Source: Lunularia cruciata
Taxonomy: Eukaryota > Streptophyta > Marchantiopsida > Lunulariales > Lunulariaceae
Length of the DNA stretch: 64,000 nt
Direction: 5' to 3'
NCBI GenBank assembly: GCA_948567375.1
Contig: OX419759.1
Location: 48,388,593 to 48,452,592, forward strand
The notes beneath the pieces are model-generated. The model worked only from the letters and a program-made list of their open reading frames with translations, was not told the origin of the DNA and made no database searches. Positions within the stretch are counted from its first letter, which is position 1. Each line of letters opens with the position of its first letter. The position numbers and the translations under genes are program-made. Shown here piece after piece: positions 1 to 62,760 of this stretch.

Positions 1-1131
1 GGACCTCACCATAGGAGAGAGTGTACTCAGGGCAGCGGACCTGATACCTCTGGTGCATCACAGCCAGCACAGAGGCAGTGTGAGCATTGCCACAGATTTG
101 GTCACACTAGTGACCGGTGTTTTGACCTACACCCGGAGTTACGGAGTGGTAGGGCTGCTATGGCAGGTAGTAGAGGAGCTCCAGTTCATGGAGGACGAGG
201 TGGTAGAGGTGGTGGTAGAGGATCTACACCTAGTAGGGGTGCGGTACCTGCCCTTACTTCTGACACAGCTATGGCTACTCGGATTGAGCAGTTGGAGCAT
301 AGATTGGCTAGTATGGCTATTGCTCAGAGGAGATCAGATTCGGGTGCTGAGGCTTCCACCTCATATGTTGGTGATAGAGATGCTTTGGACTTCATGTGCG
401 GAGCAGCACAGGTGGATGCATCTGCAACAGTGACTAGGAGTGCAGTACGTGCTCCAGAGCCTAGAGGAGCATCAGTGGAGTTGGACCCACAGAGAGGAGA
501 GGTTGGGAGACAGGTCAGACTTCCCCAGTCTTTCACGCTATTTGAGGCATTGCAGACGACATCCATGGTTCCTAGACGTCCCAATGCAGGTGTGGTAGGT
601 GGTGATGGAGTACCTGATGGAGTACCTGCTAGTCAGCCACCTGCTACTACACAGACTGAGTCTAGCATGATGTTGGGGGCGGCTCAGCTGATTATGCGGC
701 ATCCTTTATTTTCAGCCAGTGACATGTTTACATTGGGAGTTGACCCAGCCCCAGTGTTCCGGTTGGCTGCCACGTTGTGTGAGAGTAGGGATGGTGTAGT
801 TCCTACTACTAGAGCAGAGGTGGTTGGTAGTGGATCTGACTTGGTTGAGGAGCATGGGATCCGTTCAGCGACCAGTGGTTTATGGCAGGCAGCAGCGGCT
901 AGACTGGAGGAGTTGCCAGCTAGACCGGCCTTTGAGAGAGTGCGGTTTACACCTGGTGTTGTCCTATTGGATAACCAGAGGGGGATCTTTCGTTTGGTGG
1001 GACCTTCAGGGAAGGTCTATACACCACAGAGAGTCTTGTTAGACTCTGGTGCGCAGCCCCTTATGTTGGGGAAGGCTGCAGTTGCTGGTCTGGAGTTACG
1101 GAAGACCGATGTGGAGAGGTGTCCATTTTAG
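1..1131 (+). pseudogene. MT1 gag zinc knuckle and first half of aspartic protease
   Basis: The frame is open from base 1, so the protein starts upstream of the window. A CCHC zinc knuckle (C-x2-C-x4-H-x4-C) is coded at 79-120, followed by a Gly/Arg-rich stretch and a long, poorly conserved gag linker. Near the end the motif LLDSGAQ (about 1036-1056) is the catalytic Asp of a retropepsin. A TAG at 1129-1131 then stops the frame, but the same frame resumes at once and completes the protease. The stop most likely replaced CAG (Gln). Gag knuckles bind the RNA genome, and the protease would cut the polyprotein inside the particle. Confidence 0.8.
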
Positions 1132-2468
1132 ATCCAGACATCTCTTGGTGGTGGTTCGACACAGTACATCACACGTGGAGAGCTTGTTGTCCAGGTTCAG
1201 CCTGGTCATCCGACTGATAGCTCAGTGGTGAGAGCTCAGGCTATTGCGACGATAGCTGAGTCATATGATGTGCTAGTTGGGGGAGCAGTGTTATACCCTA
1301 TGGGTTTCAGTATTGACTATTGGGAGGAGACAACCTCTTATAGACCTGGTTGGCAGTTTGGTGAGGGACGGGTATGTCGCCTACCAGTACGTTTCAGTAG
1401 TGGCAGTCTTGGCTCACTACAGTCTGGGACCATGGCAGCATCAGTTTTGGCTTTCAGCGGTGCAGTTACTTGGCCTGGTGACTTGTTGGAGGGGAACACC
1501 CATGCAGAGGATACTCCAGTACCAGAGGAGATCACTCGGCTATGGAGTACGAGTGGGATTGTTCCATCCACCTTGGATGTTCCATTGTGGAGTTCAGAGG
1601 AGGCATTGCAGCAGCATGCAGATCAGTTGGTGCAGCAGGCTTGGAGTGGAACCTTCGTACCATCAGGGGATGAGTGTGAGGATGAGCCTCCAGAGGCAAT
1701 TGCTTTGACACCTCTGGATACCACACTCATTGCTTGGCAGTATCCAGTAGAGGGGATATGCCTATTGGAGTTGTTTGGTGGGATCAGCACCGGACTAGCT
1801 GCGGTGTTACAGGCGGGTATCCGAGTACAGAGGTACTTGTATGTAGAGAGAGATGAGATTGCAAGGCGAGTCTCTCTACATCATGTGGCACACTTGGCCT
1901 ATCGGTATCCGGAGTTATTACCGATGTCAGCAGTCAGAGGTTACCAGAAGGCCTTACCAGGAGACATTTCCTTATTGGGGGCGCATGACCTAGAGAGACA
2001 TGGGCCTATTCACTTGGTGATTTCTGGATGGCCATGTCAGGGACATACACGGGCGGGCCGCGGTTTGGGTCCTCAGGATCCTCGTTCTGGTGTGTTTTGG
2101 GAGATGTTACGGATACTACGACATCTCCAGGTTCATCAGTCTGTTTCTCCAGCTTACCTTTTGGAGAACGTTCCATTGATGGGTGATTCTCGCACTAGAG
2201 TGGTGGCGAGTACACATCAGGTCCATTCTTGGATGGGACCTGCTGTATTGTTAGATGCAGCCAAAGTGGGATCACGGGCTCATCGTCTTCGTCTTTGGTG
2301 GACGAACCTTTTACCCAGAGAGGTTCTACAGCGTAGTTATGATGGGATTCAGCGACTTGACCATATCCTTGTTGATGATATCTTGGATGTTGGGCGTCAG
2401 TCTCAGACAGTGGTAGTGGCTGATAGGTCACCTATGGCAATGGTGAACCTAGTTGGACAGCCTAGAGC
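1132..2468 (+). pseudogene. MT1 protease C-terminal half and C5 cytosine DNA methyltransferase N-terminal part
   Basis: The first 70 or so codons complete the protease (a VLVGGAVLYPMG-like flap). From about 1750 a C5 cytosine methyltransferase begins. Motif I (LELFGGISTGLAAVL, S-adenosylmethionine binding) is at about 1765-1809. Motif IV has the catalytic Pro-Cys (Cys codon 2035-2037, context GWPCQG). Motif VI, ENV, is at 2164-2172. A motif VIII-like AHRLRLWW is at about 2280-2303. Motifs come in canonical order, unlike plant DRM enzymes, where the order is circularly permuted; the motif I and VIII wording is nearest to DNMT3-type enzymes. The coding sequence is cut at 2468 by element A1 and resumes at 10106 in the same frame. 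All catalytic residues visible here are intact. Confidence 0.88.
2464..2468. repeat. Target site duplication of A1, left copy (agagc)
   Basis: It is repeated as agagc at 10101-10105 on the other side of A1. The LTR end shares a base with it, so the boundary could move by one. Confidence 0.8.
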
Positions 2469-3147
2469 TGTGAGCCGGCCTGTCTCTCACTCAGGATGAA
2501 CCTCTGATGGCTATTATGGTAGCGCACCATGGACTAAGAAGGCAAGGAACCCCAACTCCATCATACTCCTTCAAGGCTAACACTCCAAGACTCAAGACAT
2601 TGCTCACTAGAGAACTCAATGAGAGAGAGATAGTTGCAAATGAAAGGATGATTAGTACCTCCTCACACCTTGTTTATATACTTGTGAAATAGTTAGGTAC
2701 CAAAGTGACTAATTACCGTAGTAACTCAAGTTACTAGACTAAAAGTCAAGTAAAGTCAAAAAGTAGAAAGGAATATCCATTCACATGGGCATATTCCCCT
2801 TATCTTGACCCAACCACTAAAGCAAGGATTCCTTCACATGGGCTATCCTTGGACTAAAGAAGAATCCAAAACAAAAAGGCTTGCGGGCCCAAGAGTTCTC
2901 AACTCTTTCCCCAAATCCAAACACCTAGGAATAATACCAAGTCAACACACTAAAATCCAAAATAGTAGTGCTCATCTTTTCTACTTCCTCTAAAGTAAGG
3001 TCCCATCTATCTTAGCTATGACTAACTTTAGCTAACCATGACTAATATAGAACCATCCTGTATCTCTATATAAATAATATCTCTTAAGTACTTGTAATAC
3101 TAAGCTAAATATCACAATACCACACACATGCACAAATGGGTGTTACA
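2469..3147 (-). repeat. A1 3' LTR (left copy)
   Basis: About 679 bp, starting TGTGAGCC and ending GTTACA on the + strand; the right LTR is 666 bp and near-identical. A TATA-like stretch (ttatatac, about 2674-2681) on the - strand sense reads tatataaacaagg, also present in A2 at about 54306. Confidence 0.9.
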
Positions 3148-3166
3148 TTTACCCCCGGACTAAGTT
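3148..3166 (-). other. A1 polypurine tract
   Basis: On the - strand, a run reading GTCCGGGGGTAAA lies directly before the 3' LTR. The same tract precedes the A2 LTR at 53818-53829. Confidence 0.75.
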
Positions 3167-3195
3167 TTCACTTTGTCCTCAAAGTGAAGGTCTCT

Positions 3196-6100
3196 CTACC
3201 TTCTATGGTACATCTTCAACTTATCATGGTTAATCCTATCAAAGTGTCTTCCTCCCAACTCCTTGAGATCATAAGTGTAATTTCCCCACACCTTCTCTAC
3301 TATGAAAGGTCCAAAGTACTTAGGCAAAAACTTCTTTTGCACTCTCTTGAATCGAATGGAATCAAACAACATTACCCAATCACCTTCTTTGAAAGGCTCC
3401 ACCTTCTTCTTGCCTTGCCTCTTGTCATAGCTCTCCTTTTGTTTCCTTTGGGCTTGCTCCACTCGAACCATAGCAACTGCTCTTGCCTCTTCCAACTCCA
3501 TGAGTTGATCCTTCCTTGACTTCTCTGCATCACTTCCTTGTGCTTTCTTCAATCTCCTATGAATGCTTTGGAAGGTAGGAAGATCAAAGTGAATAGGTAA
3601 GGTAGACTCAATACCATACACCAATTGGAATGGAGAATATCCAGTGGAAGTCTTCATGGTTGTCCTATACTCCCACAAAACTGCATGAATCCTCTTGTCC
3701 CAATGATGTTTAGCCCCCTCCATTTCTGCATCTTTGGCCAACATCATGCACAAGGTCTGATTGGTTCTCTCTGCCAAGCCATTGGAATTTGGCTTATAGG
3801 ATGTAGTTACTCTATGTGTGATAGAGAAATGTCGTAGCATGGCTGTAGTAATGCTTCCTGTAAACTCTCCTCCTCTATCAGAAACCAACTCCAAAGGGCA
3901 TCCAAACCTAGTGATAATGCGTTCATAAAGAAATCTACCCACTTCATCTTCATTCTTGTCCCTCAATGGTCTAGCCTCAACCCACTTGGTAAGGTAATCA
4001 GTAACTACCACAATGTACCGATTGTTCCTTGGGGTTCTATTGAGAGGTCCTACAAAATCAATTCCCCACTTCTCAAAGGGTCCTAGCAATGGAATTGATC
4101 TAAGTGGTGGAGTGGATGTAGACTTTCTAGCAAAAGCTTGACAAACATGACAAGTTTTGCAATAATCAAGACAATCCTTGAAAATCCCTCTCCAATGGTA
4201 ACCTGCATATAGAATCTTGAAAGCAGTCACCTTTCCTGCAAAGTGTCCTCCACATACTAAACCTTCATGAAACTCCTTTATGATTAGGATAGACTCTTCC
4301 TTACCCACTGCTCTTCGAAGTAGACCATCTGCTCCTTGGTGAAAAAGAATATCCTCCACCATTGTGTAAGGTCTAGATCTTGCTGCAAGGGCCTTCCTCT
4401 CCCTAGCATGCATCCCTTTTGGATAGTTACCTCTTGTCACAAAATCCACAATCTCCTTGTACTCCATTGGAACCTCTTGAGTGACTGAGATTGTCATGAG
4501 CTCCTCATCCGGGAAGGAATCATCTACTGGCTCATCTCCATCATGATCATAGGCTCTAGATAACAAATCAGCATTTGCATGTTTCTTTCCTGGCTTATCC
4601 TCAATTGTGTAGTCATACTCAGACAAGAGTATCATCCACCTTGCTAGTCTCCCTTCAACATTAGGCTTGTTGAAGATGTACTTCAAAGCCTTGTGATCCG
4701 TGACAATTGTGGCTTTCCCTCCAATCAAGTAGTGTCTAAACTTCTTGAGACCAAAGATCACTGCCAACCCTTCTCTCTCTGTGACAGAGTAGTTCTTCTC
4801 TGCTGAAACCATCTGCCTACTAGCATAAGCTATTGGATGATCATGCCCATCTTGGTCTAATTGACTAAGAGTGCATCCTATAGCTACATTAGAAGCATCA
4901 GTGTAGAGGATGAAAGGCTTACTCCAATCAGGTTTAGCAAGAATTGGAGCTACAACAAGGGATTGCTTGAGCTCCTCAAAAGCTTTGAGAGCCTCCTTGT
5001 CTTCCAAAATCACCATGTAATCTACACCCTTCTTCATGTAGATGGTCAATGCATAAGCCTTGTTGGAAAATGAGAAGATGAACCTCCTATAGTACCCAAC
5101 CATTCCCAAGAATTGGCGTAACTTTGTCAAGCTTGAAGGGAATGGAAGGTCTGAGATTTTCCTCACCTTCTCAGGATCAACTGCTATTCCATCCTTGGAG
5201 ATGATGTGCCCCAAAAGTAGACCTTCTTCACATCCAAAAATGCACTTCTCTGGGTTGAGTGATGCATTTGCCTCATCCAAGCGTTGCAAGACTTTGATTA
5301 GGTGCTCAAAGTGCTCCTCCTTGCTCCCATAGACACAAAAGTCATCAATGAAATCTCTCACAAATTTCCCAATGAAAGGTTCAAATACCTTGTTCATGAA
5401 CCGTTGGAATGTGGCTGGAGCATTGCAAAGCCCAAAAGGCATGACCTTGAAAGCGTAAGTTCCCCAAGGTGTGGTGAATGTGGTGAGTTGTTGATGCTCT
5501 GGTGCAATCTTGATTTGGTTATATCCACTATAACCATCTCCAAAACTGTACCTCTCATGACCTACAACCTCCTCCAAGATCTCATCAATGAATTGCAATG
5601 GGTAGTAGTCCTTCTTGGTAACAGCATTGAGCTTCTTGTAATCCACACATACCCGAAGCTTGCCATTCTTTTTCTTCACAATGACAATTGGAGACACCCA
5701 TTCTGAATTCTCCACCTCAAAGATAAATCCAGCCTCCTTGAGCTTATCAATCTCCTCCTTCACAACCAAAGATATTGGTGGGCTAATGCGACGTTGCTTT
5801 TGGCGGATTGGTCTTGCATGTGACTCCACCTCTATCTTGTGCTCCTCCAAGGTGACTTCCTTCAAATCCTTGTAACTAAAAGCAAACACATGGATGAACT
5901 TGCGGAAAATCTCCTCAAATCTCACCTTCTCCTCCTTGGTAACATTTGGGCCATACTTGAGGGTAGATAACCTTCTCTCTACCTCCTCAAGTGTCAATGG
6001 TGATTTATCTGGGTCCTTCAAAACCTCTGGCTTAGGTGCAAAATCCATAGCACATAAAGGATACACATCTGAATCAGATTCAGATTCATCCTCCTCCGTG

Positions 6101-8022
6101 GAAGTCTCCTCTTCCATGCTTGTGTCCACACCTGAAGCTCCTCCTTCAGAATCTGATTCCCAATAATCAGAAGATGGGGTATCTGAATGTGAAGTGTTGG
6201 TGGTGTTAGTCACAAGAACAGTGACTCTATGGTTTGATGGCCCAATCCTTAAGTACCCTTTGTGCCATCGATCAGTTGTGCGTGCTGCTCTCAACCATGG
6301 CCTCCCAAGAAGTAAGTCATAGCTTGAATCCTTCAAGACTTGGAAAGTCATGAGATTTTGAACTCCCATAACTGAAACTACCACCTTATCCATCACTCCT
6401 ACTAGTCGAACTTGTTGCTTGTTTGCCATGCTCACCACAAATGTTGAAGGTCTTGAGGGTATCATACCCAACTTCTTCATCAACCTTTCTGACATGGCAT
6501 TCACTGCTGATCCTCCATCAACCAATGCATCCTTGATGTTGTGACCATTCACTCTCACATCAATCTTGGAGGCATATTCACAAGCCTCCCATGGTGCTGG
6601 CTTGGCATCCACCACCCCCATTGATACTGGAACTTTTGCCTTCTTCTTCTTCTTGCTCCTTGTAGAACTCAAACCACTTCTAAGCTCCTTTCTCAAGGTA
6701 GGGTTCAAAGCAATTAATTGGCCCACTGTGATGTTAGCCTTGTGACTACCAACATCCTCCAACACATTGTAGTTCCATTGTTGCTTTGAGATCAAGAAGT
6801 CCTCCATCCCCAACTTCTTCCTTGGAGTCTTTGTTGTTGATGGTGTTGAGGTGCGAGTGCTCCTAGTAGACATAGGAGTATCCTTGCTTGAAGTAAATCC
6901 TTGAGAAGAGTGAACATCCTCTGCAAAACGAGCTCTCTTCTTCTCTTGTGCCAAAAGCTCCAAATTAGGACCCTTGGAGTTTGAGCACTCTCCCTTCTCA
7001 TACTTGCTCTCAACCACATCTATGGATGCTATCCCCTTACCTTTGTTGGGATTAGGAGCCACTTGGGTTTCACTACCTCCCTCTTTCCCTCTATTGGCTC
7101 CCTCATAACCCCTTCCTCCATGGTAAATGGAATTTGGGCAATTTCTTTGGATATGGCCTCTTCCTCCACAACCAAAACAATTTCTATCATTGAAATTGTT
7201 GGCTGGTTGGCCTCCTCTATATGGATAGTTTCCATAACTCCTAGGCCCTCTCCCTACATTCTGATCCACCTCTCTCTTCTCCCATAGTTGCACCACATTG
7301 ATCTTGAGATCCGCAAGTTGTTCTGTGATGGTTTGGAGTGGATCTTTTGGTGGAGGTGCAAGAACTGGAGTAACTACTACTTGTGGTGCAACCCTTGTCA
7401 CCAAAGTATCAGAAGTTCCACCATACTTGTAGCCTTGAGGAGGATGCACAACCTCCTTCACCACCAAATCACTCTCATCCCCTTCCAAACTCTCCTCCAT
7501 ACGAATTGCGATCTTGATAGCTTCAACCTTGGAAGAAGGTTTCTCATATCTCACCTTGCTTCTAATTTGTGTTCTCAATCCTCCCACAAAATTCTTGGTG
7601 AGCATGGCCCCTATGCCAATCATTGTAGTCTCCACATCATCCCCACCCTTCCTCAACACTATGCGAAATCTGGACTCCAACTTTTCCACTCTTTCCACAT
7701 AGACCCTCACTTTCTCTCCATCTCCTTGCTTGAGAAATGTAACCTCACTCATCAATCTCTCATAACTCTCATCAGGAAGAAAGTTTTCAATGAGTGCTGA
7801 AGTCAAAGTCTCCCAAGACTCCTCTTCCCCCTCTCTTCTCTCTCTCTTTTGGTATTCTGACTCATACCATGTAAGTGCTGCATCCTCAAAGAAATCTGGT
7901 AATAATGAGGCCCACTCATTCTTCCTCCTCTCATTGTTTCCTATGCAAGCTCTCTTGAAGTCTCTCACAAAGGCCTCCACATCTTCTCCATCCTTGCCAA
8001 AGAAAACCGGAAGTTTCCCCAT
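3196..8022 (-). CDS. A1 gag-pol polyprotein, 1608 residues, intact
   Basis: A single open frame codes gag and all pol enzymes. Gag has a CCHC knuckle at residues 282-295. The protease active site is ALVDGGS (Asp 502; DGG instead of DSG/DTG). Reverse transcriptase has CVDYKKLN (about 792-799), PFGLCNAPATFQ (about 862-873) and FIDD (891-894). RNase H has TDAS (about 1041-1044), TDHKAL and NADLLSR. The integrase zinc domain H-H-C-C lies at about 1252-1294, with catalytic Asp 1322, Asp 1382 and Glu 1418 (35 residues between the last two). A GPF-type module follows. There is no frameshift between gag and pol, as in many plant Tat/Athila-side elements. All catalytic residues are present, so it could still be functional. 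The first Met fits the gag start MGKLPVFFGKDG, conserved in A2 at 40316. Confidence 0.95.
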   Translation of the reverse strand: MGKLPVFFGKDGEDVEAFVRDFKRACIGNNERRKNEWASLLPDFFEDAALTWYESEYQKRERREGEEESWETLTSALIENFLPDESYERLMSEVTFLKQGDGEKVRVYVERVEKLESRFRIVLRKGGDDVETTMIGIGAMLTKNFVGGLRTQIRSKVRYEKPSSKVEAIKIAIRMEESLEGDESDLVVKEVVHPPQGYKYGGTSDTLVTRVAPQVVVTPVLAPPPKDPLQTITEQLADLKINVVQLWEKREVDQNVGRGPRSYGNYPYRGGQPANNFNDRNCFGCGGRGHIQRNCPNSIYHGGRGYEGANRGKEGGSETQVAPNPNKGKGIASIDVVESKYEKGECSNSKGPNLELLAQEKKRARFAEDVHSSQGFTSSKDTPMSTRSTRTSTPSTTKTPRKKLGMEDFLISKQQWNYNVLEDVGSHKANITVGQLIALNPTLRKELRSGLSSTRSKKKKKAKVPVSMGVVDAKPAPWEACEYASKIDVRVNGHNIKDALVDGGSAVNAMSERLMKKLGMIPSRPSTFVVSMANKQQVRLVGVMDKVVVSVMGVQNLMTFQVLKDSSYDLLLGRPWLRAARTTDRWHKGYLRIGPSNHRVTVLVTNTTNTSHSDTPSSDYWESDSEGGASGVDTSMEEETSTEEDESESDSDVYPLCAMDFAPKPEVLKDPDKSPLTLEEVERRLSTLKYGPNVTKEEKVRFEEIFRKFIHVFAFSYKDLKEVTLEEHKIEVESHARPIRQKQRRISPPISLVVKEEIDKLKEAGFIFEVENSEWVSPIVIVKKKNGKLRVCVDYKKLNAVTKKDYYPLQFIDEILEEVVGHERYSFGDGYSGYNQIKIAPEHQQLTTFTTPWGTYAFKVMPFGLCNAPATFQRFMNKVFEPFIGKFVRDFIDDFCVYGSKEEHFEHLIKVLQRLDEANASLNPEKCIFGCEEGLLLGHIISKDGIAVDPEKVRKISDLPFPSSLTKLRQFLGMVGYYRRFIFSFSNKAYALTIYMKKGVDYMVILEDKEALKAFEELKQSLVVAPILAKPDWSKPFILYTDASNVAIGCTLSQLDQDGHDHPIAYASRQMVSAEKNYSVTEREGLAVIFGLKKFRHYLIGGKATIVTDHKALKYIFNKPNVEGRLARWMILLSEYDYTIEDKPGKKHANADLLSRAYDHDGDEPVDDSFPDEELMTISVTQEVPMEYKEIVDFVTRGNYPKGMHARERKALAARSRPYTMVEDILFHQGADGLLRRAVGKEESILIIKEFHEGLVCGGHFAGKVTAFKILYAGYHWRGIFKDCLDYCKTCHVCQAFARKSTSTPPLRSIPLLGPFEKWGIDFVGPLNRTPRNNRYIVVVTDYLTKWVEARPLRDKNEDEVGRFLYERIITRFGCPLELVSDRGGEFTGSITTAMLRHFSITHRVTTSYKPNSNGLAERTNQTLCMMLAKDAEMEGAKHHWDKRIHAVLWEYRTTMKTSTGYSPFQLVYGIESTLPIHFDLPTFQSIHRRLKKAQGSDAEKSRKDQLMELEEARAVAMVRVEQAQRKQKESYDKRQGKKKVEPFKEGDWVMLFDSIRFKRVQKKFLPKYFGPFIVEKVWGNYTYDLKELGGRHFDRINHDKLKMYHRR

Positions 8023-8258
8023 CTTAACCCCTCACTATCTTTCTTTTCTCTCAATTTTTTTTTTCTCTTTTTTTTTTCTCTCACTCTATTACTAATAGAG
8101 TATATACATGACTAACACCATCTGAGAATAATCCACTCTAGGGAACACAAAAGGTTCAGGTTGCTCCAAGATTTCTATAGCAACATCAAATCCTAGAGTG
8201 CATATTAATCTAACTCTCATGGATAGTTTATCCATAAGTTGAAAGATTATCTCCATCA

Positions 8259-8756
8259 CTAATCTTGAGAACTAGCTGATGAAGGTGGTAGTATTTCTGT
8301 AGCTGTACTAAGACTCTCTCCAAGATCCTTTACCAAAGTTTCCAAAAGTGCTTTTACTCCACTACACTCATGTCCTTTTGGAAGTCCTTCAACTCCACAA
8401 ACCTCACACAACTCCTTGGTCTTAGATCTTCTCCCTCCCAATCTTGGTGAAGAAGGTCCAACATGCAAACCCAAGTCAAGTAAGCTTCTCCTTTCCCTCA
8501 ATCTCTTGCTCTCAAAGGTCAATGGACATGAACTTGCCTTATGTCCCTTCTCTCCACATAGAAAGCACTTAGACTCACTCTTTCCTCCAAGTGGTGTAGG
8601 TTTTTGGATCCTCTCAACACTCTCTTCAAATTCTATTGTAAACTCTCTTTTCCTCAAATCCACCCCTACAATCACCTCAAACCCTTGGGGAACCTTGCAT
8701 AATCTCAATTTCCACTCTTGATGACCCTCCATGTTCCCCAAGATGAATCTAAACAC
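8259..8756 (-). CDS. A1 accessory reading frame upstream of gag-pol, with zinc knuckle
   Basis: This 165-codon frame lies between the primer site and gag-pol, about 240 bp ahead of gag on the same strand. It carries a CCHC knuckle (CFLCGEKGHKASSC, near residues 64-77) and a second Cys/His cluster (CEVCGVEGLPKGHEC). Most gypsy elements have nothing here. It could be a separate RNA-binding protein, or the end of a duplicated gag. A2 keeps only the start of this region (to about 40295) and lacks the rest, so it is not required for insertion of every copy. No family was recognised beyond the knuckle. Confidence 0.6.
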   Translation of the reverse strand: MFRFILGNMEGHQEWKLRLCKVPQGFEVIVGVDLRKREFTIEFEESVERIQKPTPLGGKSESKCFLCGEKGHKASSCPLTFESKRLRERRSLLDLGLHVGPSSPRLGGRRSKTKELCEVCGVEGLPKGHECSGVKALLETLVKDLGESLSTATEILPPSSASSQD

Positions 8757-9415
8757 TCAAACATGCTTTTTGTTGATCTCAAACTTCTCATGCATGAGAT
8801 CCTCACTCTGCAGAATTGACCCTTCCTCACAATGTCACTCAAATCTCCCAACCAATATGTCACAGTCCTCTTAAATTTTCCACACTTGATCACAACTCCA
8901 GGGCGTCCCTCCCTACAAAATTTCAGATCTTTTCATTGAGCCATTTGGCCTAGACACCTTTCTATTCAGCACCCATATTTCAGATTTGGTCTGAAAACCA
9001 CCCCCCTCACTTCAAAAACTCATAACGCCCTTATCACCTTTCAAAAATTCTAGCCCAGTGTGCATAGAAGCTCTCTCAATAATTTCAAGTGTGCTAATTG
9101 AAAGATAACCCAAGCTATCATGTGTAGAAATCTCAAGTCCAGATCTCAAACTTGAGATTTTGCCCAAAATCACCTTAATCCCCAAAATCTGCAATCCACC
9201 TCACACAATCTCTCCAATTCCTCTCATGTGTACAAGATGTACAAAATCACCTCAAAGACATCATAATGAACTACAGGGTATACAAATGGATCTTGGTTCT
9301 CTAACATAAGTTCAGCCCTCTCCTCTCCTAATGTTCTCTCCAAGTGAGCTCTCATAGCCTCCTTCTGCCTAATGTAGAATTGGACGCGGAACATTATCTT
9401 GCCTTCTAGAGAGGT
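8757..9415 (-). other. A1 leader region
   Basis: This is non-coding leader between the primer site and the accessory frame. Several short open stretches overlap here without a common frame. The part 8700-9060 recurs in A2 at about 39930-40290. Confidence 0.6.
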
Positions 9416-9431
9416 CCCGGCAACGGAACCA
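9416..9431 (-). other. A1 primer binding site (tRNA-Asp-like)
   Basis: On the - strand, four bases inside the 5' LTR, the sequence reads TGGTTCCGTTGCCGGG. It resembles the complement of the 3' end of plant tRNA-Asp, with about two mismatches, as used by Athila-type elements. Confidence 0.6.
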
Positions 9432-9435
9432 AAAA

Positions 9436-10101
9436 TGTGAGCCGGCCTGTCTCTCACTCAGGATGAACCTCTGATGGCTATTATGGTAGCGCACCATGGA
9501 CTAAGAAGGCAAGGAACCCCACTCCATCATACTCCTCCAAGGCTAACACTCCAAGACTCAAGACATTGCTCACTAGAGAACTCAATGAGAGAGAGATAGT
9601 TGGATGATGAGTACCTCCTCACACCTTGTTTATATACTTGTGAAATAGTTAGGTACCAAAGTGACTAATTACCGTAGTAACTCAAGTTACTAGACTAAAA
9701 GTCAAGTAAAGTCAAAAAGTAGAAAGGAATATCCATTCACATGGGCATATTCCCCTTATCTTGACCCAACCACTAAAGCAAGGATTCCTTCACATGGGCT
9801 ATCCTTGGACTAAAGAAGAATCCAAAACAAAAAGGCTTGCGGGCCCAAGAGTTCTCAACTCTTTCCCCAAATCCAAACACCTAGGAATAATACCAAGTCA
9901 ACACACTAAAATCCAAAAGTGGTGCTCATCTTTTCTACTTCCTCTAAAGTAAGGTCCCATCTATCTTAGCTATGACTAACTTTAGCTAACCATGACTAAT
10001 ATAGAACCATCCTGTATCTCTATATAAATAATATCTCTTAAGTACTTGTAATACTAAGCTAAATATCACAATACCACACACATGCACAAATGGGTGTTAT
10101 A
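9436..10101 (-). repeat. A1 5' LTR (right copy)
   Basis: It matches 2469-3147 apart from a few small indels and substitutions. Its last bases read GTTATA where the other copy has GTTACA. Transcription of the element would run leftwards from here. Confidence 0.9.
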
Positions 10102-10676
10102 GAGCTGCATTTCCCACACTCATGAGTTTCCCAGGCTCTCATGCTTTTCAAGAGGGAGGACCTGGACTTGTTTGGGACTCACAGTTACAGCAGTTGGTGG
10201 AGCCCAATGCTGATGAGAGAGAGCGGGCGATGGGTTTTTGCACTGGTATTACCGCTGTTCCAGCAGTGTTAGAGGCATCCAGGCGTCAGGTGTTAGGTCA
10301 GGCTATGGACCTGAACTATTTGACTTGGATTGTGAGCCTTGGTTTGGCAGAGCAGCGTAGGATGCGCTTGATAAGCATCACCACTCGGACACTTGTGAGC
10401 CTTGTGCCTATCGAGACAATTCAGGCACATGCTGGGGGCGATGGACCGAGTGGACATGGTATTCTTGGGACACATCCAGTAGCTACTAGGGAGAGTGGTC
10501 TACTTGGAGTCCATCCAGGTGAGCGTGGGCTACTTGGATTACACCCTTGGTCCACATGGGATGCAGCCAGAGGACGTATGGAGCTTGCAGCCAGAGTGGA
10601 GGGAGTTTTTCACACAGAGGTTGGGACCTCTAGTGGTTGGGAGCATGACACCATTGCTCCCAAGGGCCCAGTGTAG
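10102..10676 (+). pseudogene. MT1 DNA methyltransferase C-terminal part
   Basis: This continues the methyltransferase in frame after the A1 insertion (target duplication agagc). It supplies the target-recognition end and motif X: a GFCTGITAVP segment followed by RRQVLGQAMDLN (about 10279-10317), which matches the end of DNMT3/DNMT-type domains, where this helix closes the cofactor pocket. After it comes a linker with near-repeats of G-L-L-G-x-H-P (about 10497-10550). A TAG at 10674-10676 stops the frame, followed directly by CAG, consistent with an original Gln-Gln. The presence of motif X downstream of the insertion shows the methyltransferase was complete before A1 arrived. Confidence 0.85.
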
Positions 10677-12617
10677 CAGCCAGTCAGTACGTCTTCCACT
10701 CCTACTACAGTTACAGAGGATACTTGGGAGCCAGATCTTGGACCCAAGCTTACTGGAGAGGAAAGACGGAGGGTTTGGAGGTTCTTGAGGAGTCACACGA
10801 GTTGTTTTGCCTTCAGTATGAAGGATTTGGGTGCTCTGAAGGGACCTGGTATACGGATTGAGCTGACTAGCGACACACCTGTTTTCCGATGTTCTTATCG
10901 ATATAGTGAGATGGAGAGGACATTGATTCAGAGCCGGAGTAGTGACCTTTTTGAGGCTGGTTTGGTGGAGATTTCACATGGAGAGTATGCATCAGCGACA
11001 GTGATGCCAGCCAAGAAGGATATGCATGGCAACTATACAGATAGGCGGATGTGTGGAGATTACCGTCCTATCAACCGACAGACCAGGGCTGATCGGTATG
11101 CCATGCCTACACCGGAGGAGATTTTTGATGCGATTGGGCATGCAAAGGTCTTCAGTACTTTGGATCTTTGAGCGGGATATCATCAATTGCCGATCAGGGA
11201 GGAGGATAAGTCCAAGACAACATTTTGGGCTATTGATCCTCACAACAAGGATGTGTTATATCAGTGGAGATTCTTACCATTTGGGTTGAAGAATGCTCCT
11301 GCTGAGTTCCAGAGGGTCATGGATAGGATCCTAGCTGGACTGGATTTTGCTCAGTGCTATATTGATGACATTTTGGTGTATAGCACTACTGTGGAGGAGC
11401 ATGAGAGACAATTGTTGGAGGTGTTTGAGAGGTTGAGATCTCATGGACTCAAATTACATCCTGGGAAGTGTAGGTTCTTCCATGAGCAGGTTGAGTATTT
11501 GGGTCACACTATCTACCCCGGAGGACTTGGTGTTCAGCAGACCAAGGTGGAGGCTATTGCACGTATTCCTCGGCCTACGGATGTGAGCAGAGTGCGAGCA
11601 TTCCTTGGGTTGGCAAACTTCTATCGCCACTATGTTAGAGGATTTAGTGCCATTGCCAAGGCCTTGACGAAGCTGACCAAGCTTACACAGGAGTGGTGTT
11701 GGGGAGATGAGCAGGAGAGAGCTTTTGTAGAGCTCAAGGAGAGGTTGACATCTGCTCCTATTTTGAGGAGACCGATCAGGGGACGACCATTTCAGGTTCA
11801 CACTGATTGGAGTATGTTGGGGCTTGGAGCGGTGCTCACCCAACATGATGATGAGGAGAAGGAGTTTGTGGTGGCCTATGCTAGTCGCTCCAACAATTCA
11901 GCGGAGGCAAAGTATAGTTCATATGAGGGAGAGTGCTTGGCAGCAGTTTGGGCAGTAGCACATTTCCGATGTTACCTATTTGGTAACCCCTTCACTCTCA
12001 TCACTGATCATCAGCCGCTGAAGTGGTTGATGGAGTCCGACAAGCTTTCAGGGAAGCTTGCACGATGGGCTCTGATTTTACAGGAGTATGATTTCACGGT
12101 TGTTCACAGACCTGGAGCGGTGAACCATGATGCAGATGGGTTGAGTAGAAACCCATGTCCCAGCCAGCAGGATCAGACCGGAGCACGTTGGCATGGTGAG
12201 ACAGATGAGGAGATGGTGCCAGGTTGGCATGCATCGGCCTTTCTGTGTATATTTGCAGAGACTTTGGTGGTATCTCTCTCAGCGCATACAGGAGGAGTTA
12301 TTGAGGTCACAGATCCAGAGAGTGAAGATATTGGTACAGTTCAGCGAGACATTCATGATGATGTCTTAGTGATGGACTATCTTCGCACTGGTGTTGTGGG
12401 TGGCACAGTTGGGGCCAAGGAGAGAGACCGTGTTCTTCAGCGAGCCAGACGGTTCAGATTGGAGGGTAGACACCTTTTGCGTGTATGGGAGGATGGTAGA
12501 GTGCGAGTAGTACCACTTCCATCACAGAGACCACAGTTGGTCCGTCATGCTCATGAGGAGCTAGGACATTTTGGAGTAAAGCATACATATAGCTTACTCC
12601 AGAGTCATTATTGGTAG
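10677..12617 (+). pseudogene. MT1 reverse transcriptase and RNase H
   Basis: This is the same frame as the methyltransferase. Reverse transcriptase motifs are visible in order: MCGDYRPINRQT (about 11049-11084), STLDL then AGYHQLPI (11154-11195), FGLKNAPAEFQR (about 11280-11315) and the catalytic YIDD (about 11358-11370). RNase H follows, with a TDW in place of the usual TDAS (about 11800), an ITDHQPLK block (about 11998-12022) and DADGLSR (about 12129-12149). A TGA at 11169-11171 sits exactly where gypsy elements have Arg in DLRAGYHQ, so it is probably CGA to TGA at a CpG. The part ends at a TAG (12615-12617) inside the integrase zinc-binding domain. Confidence 0.9.
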
Positions 12618-13790
12618 CGCGGTATGTAGACTGAGGAACAACAGTTTGTTGCCAGATGTGTGGTTTGTGACCGAGTTAGAGCATCATTCAATGCTCCTAC
12701 GCCACAGTTACACCCATTACCTATCATGGGATTGGGTTACCGTTGGAGTTTGGACTTTGCCGGACCTTTACCGCTGACTGTGAGACATCATCGGTATGTT
12801 TTGGTGATGGTGGAGCACTTCTCCAAGTGGATTGAGCTGGTGGCACTTCCTGACAAGTCTAGTGAAGGGATAGCTTACTTGTTCCTGGATCGAGTTCTTA
12901 GTCATTTTGGTGCACCAGCTGAGGTTTTGACTGATCAGGGTACAGAGTTCTTGGGAGAGTTTCAGGTCTTGTGTGACAAGGCTTTGATTGATCATTGTAC
13001 TACATCCCGAGATCACCCTGAGGCAGATGGCTTAGCAGAGAGAGTGGTTTAGACGGTGAAGAGAGGATTGCGAAAGTATGGTTTGCAGAGAGGCCACTTG
13101 GGAGATTGGGATCTCCAGTTACCTTGGTTGGCCATGGGCTATTGGTTCAGCCGGCAAGCCTCCTTAGCATCCTTCTCTCCATACTTTCTACTCTATGGAC
13201 GAGATCCAGATTTACTTGCAGCCATTTGTCGAGATGCTACTGTAGTTTTGGACTTGGATGACCCTGATGTATGGATGAGCGCATGTTCTCAGCGGGCAGA
13301 GATCTTTTGGAGAGTGATGCCGATGGCCTTCGAGAACTTGGCGATTGCTCAGCATAAAGATACTTTACGCTATGCTACCATTCAAGGAGGAGGTTATAGA
13401 CCCTCGATCCGTCGATTTCATCCAGGCGACTATGTATATCTACAGCAGACAGCACCGACGACACTTGATGTTTCTACATGCCGCACTATCTTGAGAGTGC
13501 ACGAGGTTTTGCCATCTGGAGTCCTTGTATTAGAAGGACGTGATGGTGTTGTTTGGAAGGATCATGTGCGCAATTGTGCGCCATGCCACCTCCCAAACAT
13601 TGATGGTACTATGGACCCAAGCTTGGCACTTGTACGTGCAGGCTTGAGGTGTATGTTATGTGGCTCTTCTGGTGGAGCTGCTACTATGTTAGTGTGTGAT
13701 AGCTGTTCGAGAGGATGGCATATGGCATGTATGACTCCTCCCCTCATGGTGGTTCCTCAAGGATAGTGGTTATGTCCTAGATGTACTTGA
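12618..13790 (+). pseudogene. MT1 integrase core with C-terminal PHD finger
   Basis: The integrase zinc domain spans the stops at 12615 and 12627: the two His are in HAHEELGHFGVKH (12546-12585) and the two Cys in CVVC (about 12657-12668). The catalytic triad is Asp in SLDFAG (about 12750), Asp in LTDQGTEF (about 12927) and Glu in GLAERVV (about 13033), with Asp-Glu spacing near 35. A TAG at 13050 follows ERVV. A basic C-terminal domain comes next, then a C4HC3 PHD finger (13650-13784): CMLC, CDSC, WHMAC, CPRC. A TAG at 13764 falls between the sixth and the last pair of zinc ligands. The TGA at 13788 just after CPRCT is probably the natural stop, as it is also present in MT2. PHD fingers read histone tails and so could steer integration. 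Confidence 0.87.
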
Positions 13791-13959
13791 CCTATAGCTA
13801 GTTCATTCTTTATATGGTATAGATTGCAGACAGGCGACTAACGATGGGGCTCCATAGCACCCGGCCTCCTGATCTTTGCCCATTAGAGGGTATACCATAT
13901 ACTTAGAGTAGATGGCTATCTGGAGTTAGAGGGACCTAACCGCCAGCTAGGGGGGCGAT

Positions 13960-14065
13960 TGTGGCACTTTAGAGTCTATGTATGACTTATGTGTGAGTTG
14001 TGCTTTTATAGTGTATGATGTTGACAGCGATGTATGTTGTGTAGCGATGTATATACGCACGACAG
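13960..14065 (+). repeat. 106-bp direct repeat, first copy (start of MT1 LTR)
   Basis: It matches 14517-14622 with about one mismatch (gcgatg against gcaatg). It begins TGTGGCACTTTAGAG and ends at cgacag. Confidence 0.9.
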
Positions 14066-14516
14066 CTGTCACGCCATTTGTAGTTCCGCATCTAGATGCT
14101 CGGACACTGGAGTTCTAGTGATGGTAGTTAGAGTTATTCTAGCAGTTTCTCAGGGACTACTTTCCGACGGTTAGATTTCGTGTTCGGGGTACTGACTTCA
14201 CGGTGGGGCCCACCGTCACTTTGCACCATTCGCACCGTCGAGTGTGCCGTCAGTGGGACCGTTAGGGTTTCAGGGCTAGCTCGAGTCCAGGGGGTATAGT
14301 TTCGAAGTGAGCTCCAGAGAGCTCACTTCTCTGATGTTGAGCCTTCGAGTTCCTGGCTATGGTGGACAGAGGCCGGCAAGCGTCACCTGGATTCTCTATG
14401 CTTGAGTGGGTGTGGCTTGATTGTAATCAGTGCCCAGTTGTTGGCAGTTTATAGAGTGACAGATCAAGTACTGATCTGAGTTGAGTTGAGTTGAAAGTGT
14501 TAAGCAATCTGATTAT

Positions 14517-14622
14517 TGTGGCACTTTAGAGTCTATGTATGACTTATGTGTGAGTTGTGCTTTTATAGTGTATGATGTTGACAGCAATGTATGTTGTGTA
14601 GCGATGTATATACGCACGACAG
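14517..14622 (+). repeat. 106-bp direct repeat, second copy (end of MT1 LTR)
   Basis: This second copy of 13960-14065 has no polypurine tract in front of it, so it is not an independent LTR start. Sequence identity stops exactly at cgacag in both, after which LINE-like DNA follows. Confidence 0.9.
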
Positions 14623-50878: not shown

Positions 50879-50883
50879 AGGAT

Positions 50884-53780: not shown

Positions 53781-53829
53781 AAGAGACCTTCACTTTGAGG
53801 ACAAAGTGAAAACTTAGTCCGGGGGTAAA

Positions 53830-57500: not shown

Positions 57501-59758
57501 GCAACATGTCTATCATTCTCTATAAGTTTTAATTGGAAGTACCAAGGGTTCATTGAACAAGGTGATCGTATTTAGAAAATTCCACCAAAGTGAGAGATGA
57601 TAAAATATATGAAATGAGGCTTAGTAAGTACATGGACACAAAAATTCCCAATGGTTTGGGGGAAATGACTTGGTGGTCCATAAATTCTATCCATCCCATT
57701 CTTTGTTCTAATACCAATATAAAAGACTAAGGAGAGAAATAGGAGAACAAAGATACATTGGGACTCTTGAATAAGGAAAACTCCAAATTTTTAGCATGAG
57801 TTTAGGCTTTAGTATATCTAAGAATATACAAGGCTCTTGAGAAGCTTCTTAGTAAGCTTTCTAAAAGCCACATTCTTAGAGTGTAAGCCAAGCTAACCGG
57901 GAAGCTTCTTGAGAAGCTTTCTACTTAGCATGCAAGCTAAACTAGTCAAGAAGCTTCCCAAGAAGCTTTCTTTTAGAAGCCACCTACTTGGCATGCAAGC
58001 TAAGAAACCGAGAAGTTTCCCAAGAGACTTCCTCCTAGAAGTCACCACCTACACATCACCCGATACTTGGAAGGTACCAAGTAGCTTCCTAGATGCTTTT
58101 GGAATATTCTTATAATTCTTGGCTTATTTATCCTATTTGCTATTTCATTACTTTCAACTAACTTGTAAGTAAATTCCATATTGCTACATGTATCCTCTTG
58201 AAGTTGCACAAGTTGGAGACCTCCCATGGTTGCAATGAATACTGGGTTCTTGCAAAGAGAAGACAATTTTGAACAAGAAGGTATTGTACTCTTTATCATG
58301 AGCTGCAAGACAACTTTGCACAATATAAAAGAAGTGATCATGTTGTGAAGAAATTTTGAACTTGTCTATACCTTTAAGTCTATGACACCATAGTGACTGC
58401 TATTATCTTGGGAAATTCAAGAAGAATCTTTAAATCAAGTTGTTGTGATAGTGCATTGGGAATGATATGGAACTTTTTGGGTTTATACTCAAGCCTCATA
58501 TCAAAAAATTTAGTTTTTCCTCCCATAGATAATTTCAACTCTTCATGTACTCTAAATGTAAGATTTGTAATAAGAGTTTATGATTATTATGTATTACCAC
58601 TTGTTTTCCTAAGAGATAATGTCTCAACACCTTTATTGCTTATATTGTTGCAAGTTGTGCTTGATCTTGATCTTGATCTTGAGAAAAATAATTCCTTTTT
58701 GCTACATTTAATCATCAAGATATAAAGACAATGTGATCAAATCCATTTAGAATTTCCTATTGCAACACAACTCCAATTGCAAAGTTAAAAATATCAAAAT
58801 TAACCACACAAGGTTGTTGAGGATCATATGGTTAGAAGATAGGTTGTGAGTGCATAATATTCTTAAGTTTCTTGAATAATTCTTCTTGATTGGTGGTCCA
58901 TTCAAAGCTTGTTGCCTTCTCCAAGATATTAATCAATGTTGAAAATACGTGAGTATAATAGTGGATTATTGTACATATATCAAATGCTACACAACATACA
59001 TTGTTGACAACATCATACACTATAAAAGCATAACTCATACAGAAGTCATACACAAATTTTATAGTGCCAAAATAATAAGTTGATCTCCAACTCAACTTGA
59101 ATAAAAAATCATTCACATTTAACTCAATTGTACCAACAAATATGTTGTTATTACATTGTTAAGCCACACCAACTCTAGCTAAGAGACTCTAGGTGATGCT
59201 TGCTTGCCTTTGTCCACAATAGCTAGGAATTCAATAACTCACCATCAAGCTCTTTGGAGCTACACTCTGAAGGTATACCTCTCTACTCAATGTAGATTTC
59301 CAACCCTAATGGCATTTGTTGATGGTTCATCTGATAATGAAAATGGTGCAAGTGACAATGAGTCCAACAATGTGATCAATAGCATTAACATGAAATCTAG
59401 CTAGTACTAAGTTGTCTTTGAGCAACTAATGGTATAACTATGACTGCCAAAAATAACACTCCAATGTCTAAGCAAACTAGCTTTGGTGCTACAAATGTCA
59501 TGATAACAATTGTGCATATATTCATTGTTGCACAATAGACATCATTGTAATATCATATACTACATAAGCACAACTCATATAAAAGTCATACATAAATTCT
59601 AAAATTCCATATAACATAATCCAAGTATGTGATATGCCCATGACAAGCAAAGATCACAAGGCCGGGTGCTATTGAGCCCCATTGTTAGTTCATATTTGTA
59701 ATTTGTATCATGTAAAGAGTGAACTAGCTATAGGTCAAGTACATTGAGGACATAGCCA

Positions 59759-59959
59759 TTATTCTTGAGGAACCACCATGAGAAGAAGAGTATAAAATGC
59801 CATATACCATCCTCGCAAACAACTATCACACACCAACATAATAAAGACTTCATCAAAAGAGCCACATAACATACACCGCAAGCCTACATGTATAACAACC
59901 AAGCTTAGATCAATAGTGCCATCAATGTCTGAGAGGTGGCAAGGCATACAATTATGCAC
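59759..59959 (-). pseudogene. MT2 decayed PHD finger
   Basis: It keeps CMLC and CDSC, but WHMAC of MT1 reads WYMAF, losing the His and a Cys. A TAA follows VPQE, at the same place as the TAG in MT1 (13764); the WLCPQC segment then follows. The shared domain shows the PHD finger belongs to the family and was not picked up by MT1 alone. Confidence 0.85.
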
Positions 59960-60670
59960 ATGATCCTTCTAAATAACACCATCATGTCCTTCCAACATAA
60001 GGATTCCACAAGGCAAAACCTTATGCACTAGCAAGATAGTGTGGCTTATAGTCACATCAAGTGTTATGAATGCAATCTATTATAGATATACATAATCAAC
60101 CGGATGAAATTAACGGATCAAGGATCTATAACCTCCTCCTTGAATAGTAGCATAACATAAGGTACCCTTATGCTGAGCAATTGCTAAGTTCTCAAAGGCC
60201 ATTGATATCACTCTTTGAAAGGTTTTTGCTTGTTGAGAACTCTATATGTTTGGATCATCCAAGTCCCAAACTACAATAACATCAAGACAAATGGTTGTAG
60301 GTAAATTTGGATCTTGTCTATAAAGTAGAAACTTAAGGAGAGAAAGATGCTAAGTTGGCTTACTAGCTAAACCAATAGCCCATGGCCAACCAAGGTAACT
60401 GGAGATCCCAATCTCCCAAGTGGCCTTTTTGCAAATTATACTTATGCAATCCTCTCTTCATCATTTGAACCACTCTCTCTACTAAGACATTTGCCTCAAG
60501 GTGATATTGGGAGGTGATAAATCAAGGCCTTGTCAAATAAGACTCAAAACTCTCCCAAGAACTCTATACATTGATCAATCAAATCCTCAATTGGTGCACT
60601 AAAATGACTAAGAATCCAATCCAAGAACAAGTAAGTTGTCTCTTCAATAGACTTATTAGGAAGTGCTACC

Positions 60671-61300
60671 AACTAAATATACTTGGAGGAGTGCTATACT
60701 ATAACAAAAACATACCAATGATACCTCATAGTCAATTATAAAGGTCTGGGAAAGTCCAAACTCCAATAGTAACCTAAACCCATGATAGGTAACCCATGAT
60801 AGGGTATAATTGTGGCATGGAAGCATTACATGATGCTTTACACATGATAAAAATGTGTGGTCACAAACCACACATTTGGCAGAAAACTATTGTGCATTGG
60901 TTTGTATACCATGCTACCAATAATTTTTGGAGTAAGCTTTATGTATGCTTTACTCCAAAATGTTCTTTTCCCTCATGAGTAACCTATGAGTAACTAAATA
61001 TACTTGGAGGAGTGCTACACTATAACAAAAACATACCAATGATACCTCATAGTCAATTATAAAGGTCTAGGAAAGTCCAAACTCCAATAGTAACCTAAAC
61101 CCATGATAGGTAACCCATGATAGGGTATAATTGTGGCATGGAAGCATTACATGATGCTTTACAAATGATAAAAATGTGTGGTCACAAACCACACATTTGG
61201 CAAAAAACTATTGTGCATTGGTTTGTATACCATGCTACCAATAATTTTTGGAGTAAGCTTTATGTATGCTTTACTCCAAAATGTTCTTTTCCCTCATGAG
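60671..61300. repeat. 321-bp tandem duplication inside MT2 integrase
   Basis: 60671-60979 and 60992-61300 are near-identical at an offset of 321 bp (integrase zinc domain to core, equivalent to MT1 about 12580-12850). Because 321 is a multiple of three, the frame is not shifted. Confidence 0.92.
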
Positions 61301-61550
61301 CATGACATGCCAATTGTGGTTTTTGATATGGAAGTGGTACTACTTCCACCCTACCATCCTCCCAAATACAAAGAAGATGTTTTCCCTTTAATCTAAATGG
61401 CTTGGCTTGATGAATGACATGATCTTTCTCCTTGGTAGCAGTTGTGCCACCCTCAAAACCAATGCAAAGATAATATATCACTAAGATATCATCATAAATG
61501 TCTTGTTTACTTACACTAATATCTCCACCCTCTAGATCTGACCTCAACAA
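61260..61550 (-). pseudogene. MT2 RNase H-integrase linker and zinc domain start
   Basis: A 96-codon piece with DIYDDILVIYYL, WEDGRVEVVPLPYQKPQL and CHAHEGKEHFGVKHT, colinear with MT1 12290-12590 (DIHDDVLVMDYL, WEDGRVRVVPLPSQRPQL, RHAHEELGHFGVKHT). The following codons read YW-stop-HG, so the TAG of MT1 at 12615 is shared. Confidence 0.85.
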
Positions 61551-62760
61551 CTCCTCTTGTATGTACTAAGAAAGATATCATAAGAGCTTATAAAAATATA
61601 CATAAAAAGGTAGATGCATGCAAACTTGATACCATCTCTTCATTTGTCTCACCATGCCCACATGCTCCAATCTAATCCTATTGGCTAGGACATGGGTTTT
61701 TACTCAACCAATCTACACCACAGTTCACCACTCTAGGTTTATGAATAACTATGAAATCATATCCTTGTAAATTAAGAGTGTATCAAGCTTATTGGATTCC
61801 TTCAACCACATAGTGGTTGATGATAAATGATGAGAGTGAAAGGGTTACCAAATAGGTAACATTGGAAATGTGCTACCACTCACATTACTACAAAACACTC
61901 CTTCTCATATGAACTACACTTTGCCTTTGCTGAATTTTTTGCATAAACTCCTTCCCCTCATCATCACTCTAGGTGAGCATTGCTCCAAGCCCCAACATTC
62001 TCCAATTAGTATGAACTTAGAATGGTCAACATTTGATCAGTCTCCTAAGAATAAAAGCAGATGTAAACCTCTCCTTGACCTCTTTAAAACTTCTCTTCTA
62101 CTCATCTCCCCAACACCACTCTTGTGTAAGGTTGGTTAGCTTTGTCAAGCCTTGGCAATGGCACTAAATCCTATAATATATTAGTGATAGAAATTTTCCA
62201 ACCCATGGAATGCTCACACTTTGCTCCCTCCATAGGCTAAGCAATATGTGCAATAGTCTCCACCTTGGTCTATTGAACACCAAGTCTACCAAGGTAGATA
62301 GTGTAACCCAAATTTTTCAACTTGCTTGAGGAAGAATCTACACTTCCCGAGATGTAATTTGAGTCCATGAGATCTCAATCTCTCAAACATCTCCAACAAA
62401 TATCTCTCATGCTAAAATATCATCATATAAGACCAAACAAAATCTAATCTTGATAAGATCAAGCCCCTGATCCTTTGGAATTTAGCAATAGTGTTCTTTA
62501 AGCCAAATGATAAGAACCTCAACTAATATAATATATCCTTATTGTGAGGATCAATAGCCCAAAATATTACCTTGGACTTGTCTTCCTCCCTAATTGGCAA
62601 CTGATGATATCTTGCTCAAAAGATCCAAAGTCGTAAAGACCTTTGCATGCATAATTGTATCAAAGATCTCTTTTGGTGTAGGTATAACATACCAATTAGT
62701 CCTATTTCATCAATTGATAGGATGGTAATATCCACAATTTAAATTTATCCTCCTAATTTC

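Follow-up and report, generated by a model that had tools for sequence, protein, structure and literature searches.

Can a retrotransposon of a land plant carry a DNA methyltransferase of its own, and what would such an enzyme do for the element? This question is raised by a stretch of 64,000 nucleotides from the liverwort Lunularia cruciata (C8:48388593-48452592, in the following the window), in which a C5 cytosine methyltransferase had been predicted within a Ty3/gypsy polyprotein. Judged by its domains and its ends, the element is a Ty3/gypsy-type retrotransposon of L. cruciata, and the window holds one dead copy of it. The element is about 9.9 kb long (from L009 with L030) and encodes, in this order, gag, protease, a DNMT3-like C5 methyltransferase, reverse transcriptase (RT), RNase H, integrase, and a PHD finger. 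The original prediction of a retrotransposon-borne DNA methyltransferase in a land plant is borne out, the host being L. cruciata; the proposed leaky stop codon, the split terminal repeats, and the PHD finger described below are features that go beyond it. The plastid matK of the assembly matches maturase K of L. cruciata with 100% identity over 81% of the query, and among the 120 listed of 522 matches no other named species exceeds 80%.

The methyltransferase and its place in the element

The domain belongs to the C5 methyltransferases, as had been predicted. The two halves of the window copy were searched separately, without joining them. The Pfam family DNA_methylase (PF00145) is matched with an E-value of 2e-7 and 31.2 bits against a cut-off of 22, and in the PDB the top-scoring sequences of known structure are chains of the DNMT3 family (DNMT3A best), with E 1e-9 for the window piece alone and 1e-20 with a profile. 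The profile search, the fold, and a small tree agree that the nearest class is DNMT3; the domain is closer to DNMT3 than to the other classes in a tree that covered DNMT3 and DRM but had no DNMT1, CMT, or algal retrotransposon enzyme from de Mendoza et al. 2018 (PMC5890265). In addition, the motif order I-IV-VI-VIII-IX/X is unrearranged, unlike that of DRM enzymes; the DRM gene of the host (L002, C1:48268596-48271946) is rearranged, as judged by eye. The host also has a DNMT3 gene in exons (L001, C7:31988337-31991654), and both host genes fall outside the element group in the tree. Across 25 aligned rows, some with identities as low as about 40%, the columns of the catalytic Cys, Glu, and Asn are invariant. 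By these matches and motifs the domain is a DNMT3-like C5 methyltransferase that is complete in the first open reading frame (ORF1) of the element. A bacterial or phage origin was considered and rejected, as three bacterial or viral methyltransferases fall outside in the tree (modest support); a Streptomyces methyltransferase (L051) is alike in one short stretch (44% over 55 amino acids).

The element domain shares the catalytic fold and the motif order with animal and bryophyte DNMT3 enzymes, and over motifs I–VIII the identity of the Lunularia copy is 34% with human DNMT3A and 28% with the DNMT3 of the host. In contrast to the DNMT3 enzymes, no ADD or PWWP match was found in the element pieces scanned, and the PHD finger lies elsewhere in the polyprotein.

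The window copy starts at C8:48385677, 2.9 kb upstream of the window, ends at window position 14621, and is flanked by GTAA on both sides. The methyltransferase motifs had been predicted to lie in one frame between protease and RT with no frameshift. The order holds, as motif I (near 1756), Pro-Cys-Gln (2032-2040), Glu-Asn-Val (2164-2172), and a motif VIII-like block (2269-2307) have the open frame 1132-2499 in common and the motif IX/X block lies within 10104-10673 (open frame 10032-10676), between protease and RT. The continuity does not hold, as the gene is split by a nested minus-strand Ty3 element (Table 1). The two halves on either side share the same frame, but in the portion of the copy that lies in the window seven in-frame stops precede the natural end, one of them conserved. 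The other six are sense codons in 16–20 of 20 other copies and are thus decay stops; three of them are also stops elsewhere, in 3, 1, and 2 other copies. With the nested insertion and six decay stops, the window copy reads as dead.

The 566-Mb assembly (74 contigs) was searched on both strands with up to two mismatches. A 30-mer of the methyltransferase has 2653 places in the genome, the stop region 2006, and the RT 1727, and the reversed-sequence controls have none. If all 2653 places were full-length elements of 9.9 kb they would occupy as much as about 26 Mb, although fragments may be numerous among them. In all 20 of the 10-kb copies fetched, the methyltransferase lies between the protease and RT pieces, and its first part is 93–97% identical. 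These long copies were hand-picked at about every fifth row of the methyltransferase-match ranking (123 scored of 2161 candidates), so that the domain is present in them by selection; three (L022, L023, L028) are truncated or deleted elsewhere. As predicted, copies chosen by other parts of the element also carry the domain at this position: six of six chosen by the stop region (from 100 listed places) and four of four chosen by an RT variant (from 34 RT places on C1 without the exact methyltransferase 30-mer), the latter with 63–94% identity in matching stretches. Of the 79 RT places on C1, 45 have the exact 30-mer upstream.

Concerning the number of copies, the original prediction of at least two is far exceeded in the genome, but the second copy in the window (Table 1) is an old broken relative in which no methyltransferase was detected, neither in the window (E 1e-4) nor in the 9.3 kb that start at 62701 (E 1e-3). 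Within this relative, a segment of about 321 bp is tandemly doubled with 99% identity (window 60671-61291).

The element has the protease–RT–RNase H–integrase order of Ty3/gypsy elements, with RT, RNase H, and the rve integrase recognized by Pfam; the protease is called from its DSG motif and from a homologue (P0028) which carries PF13650. The gag–protease piece can be aligned in 20 copies, of which two are cut short there, and the Retrotrans_gag match of ORF1 in copy L016 is weak (E 0.07).

A conserved in-frame UAG before the reverse transcriptase

The one conserved stop lies at 10674-10676, between the methyltransferase and the RT. All 20 other copies have TAG here, and among 100 listed genome places with exact flanks and the codon left free it is TAG in 98 and TAA in 2. 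The following six bases fit the consensus CAR-YYA in 20 of 21 copies, window copy included, the exception being L011. The Pro-Cys frame is open through to the UAG in 8 of 20 copies. A divergent relative, L049 (CADCWO010000201.1, 9285 bp), has gag, protease, and methyltransferase, then TAG CAA TCA at the equivalent stop, and continues with RT to PHD finger in the same frame. An in-frame CAR-YYA is found at only 4 of 1046 codon positions in the second open reading frame (ORF2) of L049 and at 2 of 353 in the window pieces, the stop site counted; as the motif is so rare, the probability of its chance occurrence at the UAG is small.

A UAG followed by CAR YYA constitutes the type I readthrough signal of plant RNA viruses, as described in PMC11166343, and candidate readthrough among rice gypsy elements is cited in PMC2754532. 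The Lunularia copies and L049 have the same UAG and context together with an in-frame downstream reading frame, the likeness being one of sequence alone. The ORF1-like proteins of Marchantia (P0213, 1248 amino acids) and Calypogeia (P0002) end soon after the methyltransferase, as seen by eye at the protein level, and an unbroken ORF1 with the domain is found in P0213, in Lunularia (1428 amino acids), and in L049 (1162 amino acids). As the UAG and its context are conserved and are the same in L049, we suggest that the methyltransferase is probably made together with Gag and RT–integrase by readthrough.

Split repeats, integration, and related elements

The ends of the element are split direct repeats in the arrangement B–internal–A–B–A, with B (449 bp, starting TGTCACG) at the left and A–B–A (A being 105 bp) at the right. 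Identical 4-bp flanks are present in 17 of the 18 copies with both ends, including the window copy and excepting L013; L015 and L022, in which the left B is lacking, and L023, whose left flank was not fetched, are outside this count. Thus the element has target-site duplications within the 4–6 bp of Ty3/gypsy elements, but not their identical full long terminal repeats (LTRs) at both ends. Conversely, its repeats correspond to the split direct repeats A–coding–B–A–B of the DIRS elements, but it lacks the other marks of that group: it makes target duplications, and no phage-integrase family is among the Pfam matches up to E 0.01. Membership in DIRS is ruled out by the rve integrase. The left and right B repeats differ by 0.2–6.7%, which points to insertions of mixed, partly recent age.

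If the purine-rich tract in front of the first A repeat (Table 1) is the plus-strand primer, reverse transcription would end with the start of A and the end of B. The genomic ends, however, are the start of B and the end of A. This points to an integrase that cuts a joined intermediate, resembling a two-repeat circle, at the junction of A and B and does not use the ends left by the RT. A stretch of 16 bases across this junction (GACAGCTGTC) is common to L049.

A homologue search found 92 relatives, the named sources being Calypogeia fissa, Marchantia polymorpha, Sphagnum, Riccia sorocarpa, and Closterium, beside many unnamed metagenome proteins; a profile search found 333. Two Closterium proteins (P0080, P0081) have gag, protease, and methyltransferase in one chain, as judged by eye. 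The search of IMG/VR yielded one weak match only, and that of the GTDB contigs three matches, L049 and two weak ones. Although L049 is filed under a cyanobacterial metagenome bin, it is a retroelement of a plant or alga; an overlap of 127 bases between its ends is what a closed assembly circle of 9158 bp would give, and P0230 (filed under Obscuribacterales) resembles it. The PHD region of L049 matches the PHD fingers of CHD4, PHF12, UHRF1, and KDM5A in the PDB. The proteins P0213, P0013, P0018, and P0038 of Marchantia and Sphagnum are element-borne enzymes which are named DNA (cytosine-5-)-methyltransferase in public protein sets.

Retrotransposons with a DNA methyltransferase are already known from algae, so the kind is known and the Lunularia element is a variant of it. 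According to PMC12344493, streptophytes and dinoflagellates have retrotransposons that contain DNMT3, and the main text of PMC5890265 describes, for Klebsormidium, a Gypsy element that contains a Dnmt3 and has DIRS-like repeats and, for Symbiodinium, DIRS and LINE cases. KnitGypsy-Dnmt3 of Klebsormidium nitens resembles the Lunularia element most in that a Dnmt3-type enzyme is likewise part of a Gypsy polyprotein and a DIRS-type arrangement of terminal repeats is likewise combined with Gypsy domains. In contrast, the Lunularia element resides in a land plant and has thousands of places in the genome compared with fewer copies in K. nitens; its enzyme is encoded ahead of a conserved UAG, and it has a PHD finger and 4-bp target duplications. 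As the two were compared by description only, the Klebsormidium element may share some of the latter three; the main text of PMC5890265 does not mention 'PHD' and its single mention of a stop codon concerns premature stops. SymbioDIRS-Dnmt3 of Symbiodinium likewise has a Dnmt3 domain in the retrotransposon polyprotein and A–coding–B–A–B repeats, but as described there it has a tyrosine recombinase where the Lunularia element has an rve integrase and target duplications. The same main text calls the Dnmt3 acquisition specific for the K. nitens lineage; in view of the relatives in Closterium and bryophytes, an older capture is plausible. No K. nitens sequence is among the 120 listed of the 333 profile matches. 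We found no description of a methyltransferase-bearing retrotransposon of a land plant in a literature seen mostly as titles and starts of abstracts, with subscription journals and preprints mostly outside. What sets the variant apart is the land-plant setting, the abundance, the proposed leaky stop placing the enzyme with Gag, the PHD finger, and the target duplications.

The element nested in the methyltransferase gene is separate from the one described here. A 300-base stretch of its two LTRs is 100% identical and a 4–5 bp repeat (AGAGC/GAGC, by eye) lies at its ends; its LTR identity marks it as a fairly recent insertion. An inverted copy, 92–95% alike, is found at window 50873-54104. On the minus strand at 15197-15856 an open frame resembles part of a putative non-LTR reverse transcriptase.

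Table 1. Positions of the element, its parts, and its relatives in the window
Feature	Position	Strand	Basis or remark
Gag end (CCHC zinc knuckle near 79-126) and protease start (D-S-G near 1042-1050)	1..1128	+	Open frame; motifs by eye
Protease remainder and linker to methyltransferase	1132..1698	+	38% to L049 over 108 amino acids
DNMT3-like C5 methyltransferase, first part	1738..2466	+	PF00145, PDB matches, fold
Nested Ty3/gypsy element	2469..10101	-	Gag, protease, RT, RNase H, integrase in one frame of 1611 amino acids
Methyltransferase, second part, motif IX/X region (LGQAMD 10293-10310)	10104..10385	+	62% to L049 over 87 amino acids
Proposed leaky stop, TAG and CAGCCA (CAR-YYA)	10674..10682	+	Conservation across copies
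RT (YIDD 11360-11371), RNase H, start of integrase zinc-binding domain	10677..12614	+	PF00078, PF17917, PF17919, PF17921
Integrase (rve about 12738-13019) and C-terminal region	12630..13640	+	PF00665, E 6e-13
PHD finger 3' of integrase, with a decay stop inside in the window copy	13650..13790	+	PF00628, E 2.7e-7
Purine-rich tract just 5' of repeat A, putative plus-strand primer	13948..13957	+	By eye; similar tract in L049
Split repeat A, first copy, 105 bp	13960..14064	+	
Palindrome GACAGCTGTC at the junction of A and B	14061..14070	+	
Split repeat B, right copy, 449 bp	14067..14515	+	Left copy at C8:48385677, beyond the window
Split repeat A, second copy, right end of element	14517..14621	+	Followed by target duplication GTAA
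Old broken relative of the same family, A–B–A end	58986..62736	-	RT, integrase, PHD finger, terminal repeats recognizable

What the methyltransferase may do

Taken as a whole, the explanation which fits best, and which we regard as likely, is that the methyltransferase is produced in amounts like those of Gag, RT and integrase arise by readthrough, and the packaged enzyme marks the element's own cDNA. Most ribosomes would stop at the UAG, which would leave the methyltransferase at Gag level, and readthrough would provide smaller amounts of RT and integrase. The methyltransferase would be carried into the particle and would methylate the cDNA de novo, probably at CG, before or during integration. 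New copies would then arrive pre-marked, quiet, and tolerable to the host, and the cDNA would perhaps be shielded. The PHD finger may direct new insertions into chromatin that bears a suitable histone tail. We infer these steps with falling confidence, from readthrough through packaging and cDNA methylation to chromatin guidance.

Alternatively, the methyltransferase could be active without marking cDNA. Its targets in trans would then be RNA or the chromatin of the host or of the element, and the effect could be, for example, a restraint on the element's own rate or a change in host regulation. We consider this conceivable but doubtful. The domain alone is silent on its substrate, options of this type are raised in the discussion of PMC5890265, and the PHD finger suggests a link to chromatin; on the other hand, the position beside Gag and before the proposed leaky stop would favour packaging.

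It is rather unlikely, in our view, that the domain has little or no catalytic activity and no present function and persists as an inherited passenger through recent master copies. Nevertheless, several observations point in this direction or otherwise weigh against packaged cDNA marking. Motif X departs from the usual form, being GQ instead of GN, motif IV is PCQ instead of the PCN of DNMT3A, and in P0080 and P0275 the Pro of the catalytic motif appears, by eye, to be Glu. Compared with L049, the domain is 47–62% identical, mostly below RT (58–62%) and integrase (79%), its first part being less conserved than both. For Klebsormidium, the nearest case in the literature, the enzyme is reported to have had no activity in yeast, where human DNMT3B failed as well. 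In addition, the RNA just 3' of the stop folds better than shuffles in L049 (z -3.36) but no better in the window copy (z -0.57), and a structured RNA after the stop is thus unsupported in Lunularia.

The decay of the copies decides little. Per C site, C/T differences amount to 0.10 in CG, 0.07 in CHG, and 0.016 in CHH, and of 110 stops in six pieces over 20–25 copies, 66 are CAG to TAG and 27 CGA to TGA. By these counts the pattern is that expected of copies methylated at CG and CHG; silencing by the host alone would explain it equally well, and it is therefore not evidence for self-methylation. Nor do the ratios of nonsynonymous to synonymous changes (dN/dS) within the genome separate the domain from its out-of-frame control. 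The pooled value is 0.31 for the first methyltransferase part (95% interval 0.22–0.45; 0.56 in frame +1 and 1.00 in frame +2) and 0.31 for the RT (0.60 and 0.80), and for the second methyltransferase part it is 0.66 in frame as against 0.41 and 0.51 out of frame; in four older copies it is 0.29–0.61 in frame, 0.28–0.41 in frame +1, and 1.0–1.1 in frame +2. As decay from C to T confounds these values and the control is similarly low, we claim no selection from dN/dS. The invariant catalytic residues and the identity to L049, which is well above that of gag (28%) and of the protease-linker piece (38%), appear to be better evidence, and together with the long unbroken ORF1 in Marchantia, Lunularia, and L049 they argue against a mere passenger.

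Expression of ORF2 by splicing, reinitiation, or an internal promoter, which would not imply a Gag-level dosage of the enzyme, seems to us improbable. The Marchantia gene models P0217 and P0222 seem, by eye, to jump from the methyltransferase to the RT or beyond, these being predictions. Against this stand the maintained frame, the almost invariant UAG, and the CAR-YYA context, which is rare by chance and present in two distant elements. Finally, that a host DNMT3 gene was interrupted by retrotransposons, as the public names of some Marchantia and Sphagnum relatives could suggest, is refuted for practical purposes by the thousands of dispersed places, the element ends with their target duplications, and the separate host DNMT3 and DRM genes.

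Returning to the packaged enzyme which marks its own cDNA, we offer a wider history as a tentative proposal only. A split-repeat gypsy element might have captured a DNMT3 once, before the land plants, and charophytes and bryophytes might have kept it as a Gag-level particle enzyme; the cDNA would be methylated before insertion, the PHD finger would steer it to matching chromatin, and this restraint would have helped the family to reach thousands of places.

DNMT3-type enzymes are what hosts use to silence jumping genes, and here such an enzyme is carried by a jumping gene itself. The reports so far concern dinoflagellates and charophyte algae, to which Lunularia adds a very abundant land-plant family whose relatives occur in the established laboratory plant Marchantia. 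The names of the element enzymes in public protein sets could mislead counts of host methylation genes. The genome of Lunularia is estimated at 581 Mb in PMC9985172, where the excess over other liverworts is ascribed to bursts of Ty3/Gypsy elements, and the family described here may be part of these bursts. The conserved, presumably leaky stop offers a clue to the role of the enzyme, as it would place it with Gag and not with the RT. If the proposed mechanism is true, the element would bring its own silencing mark.

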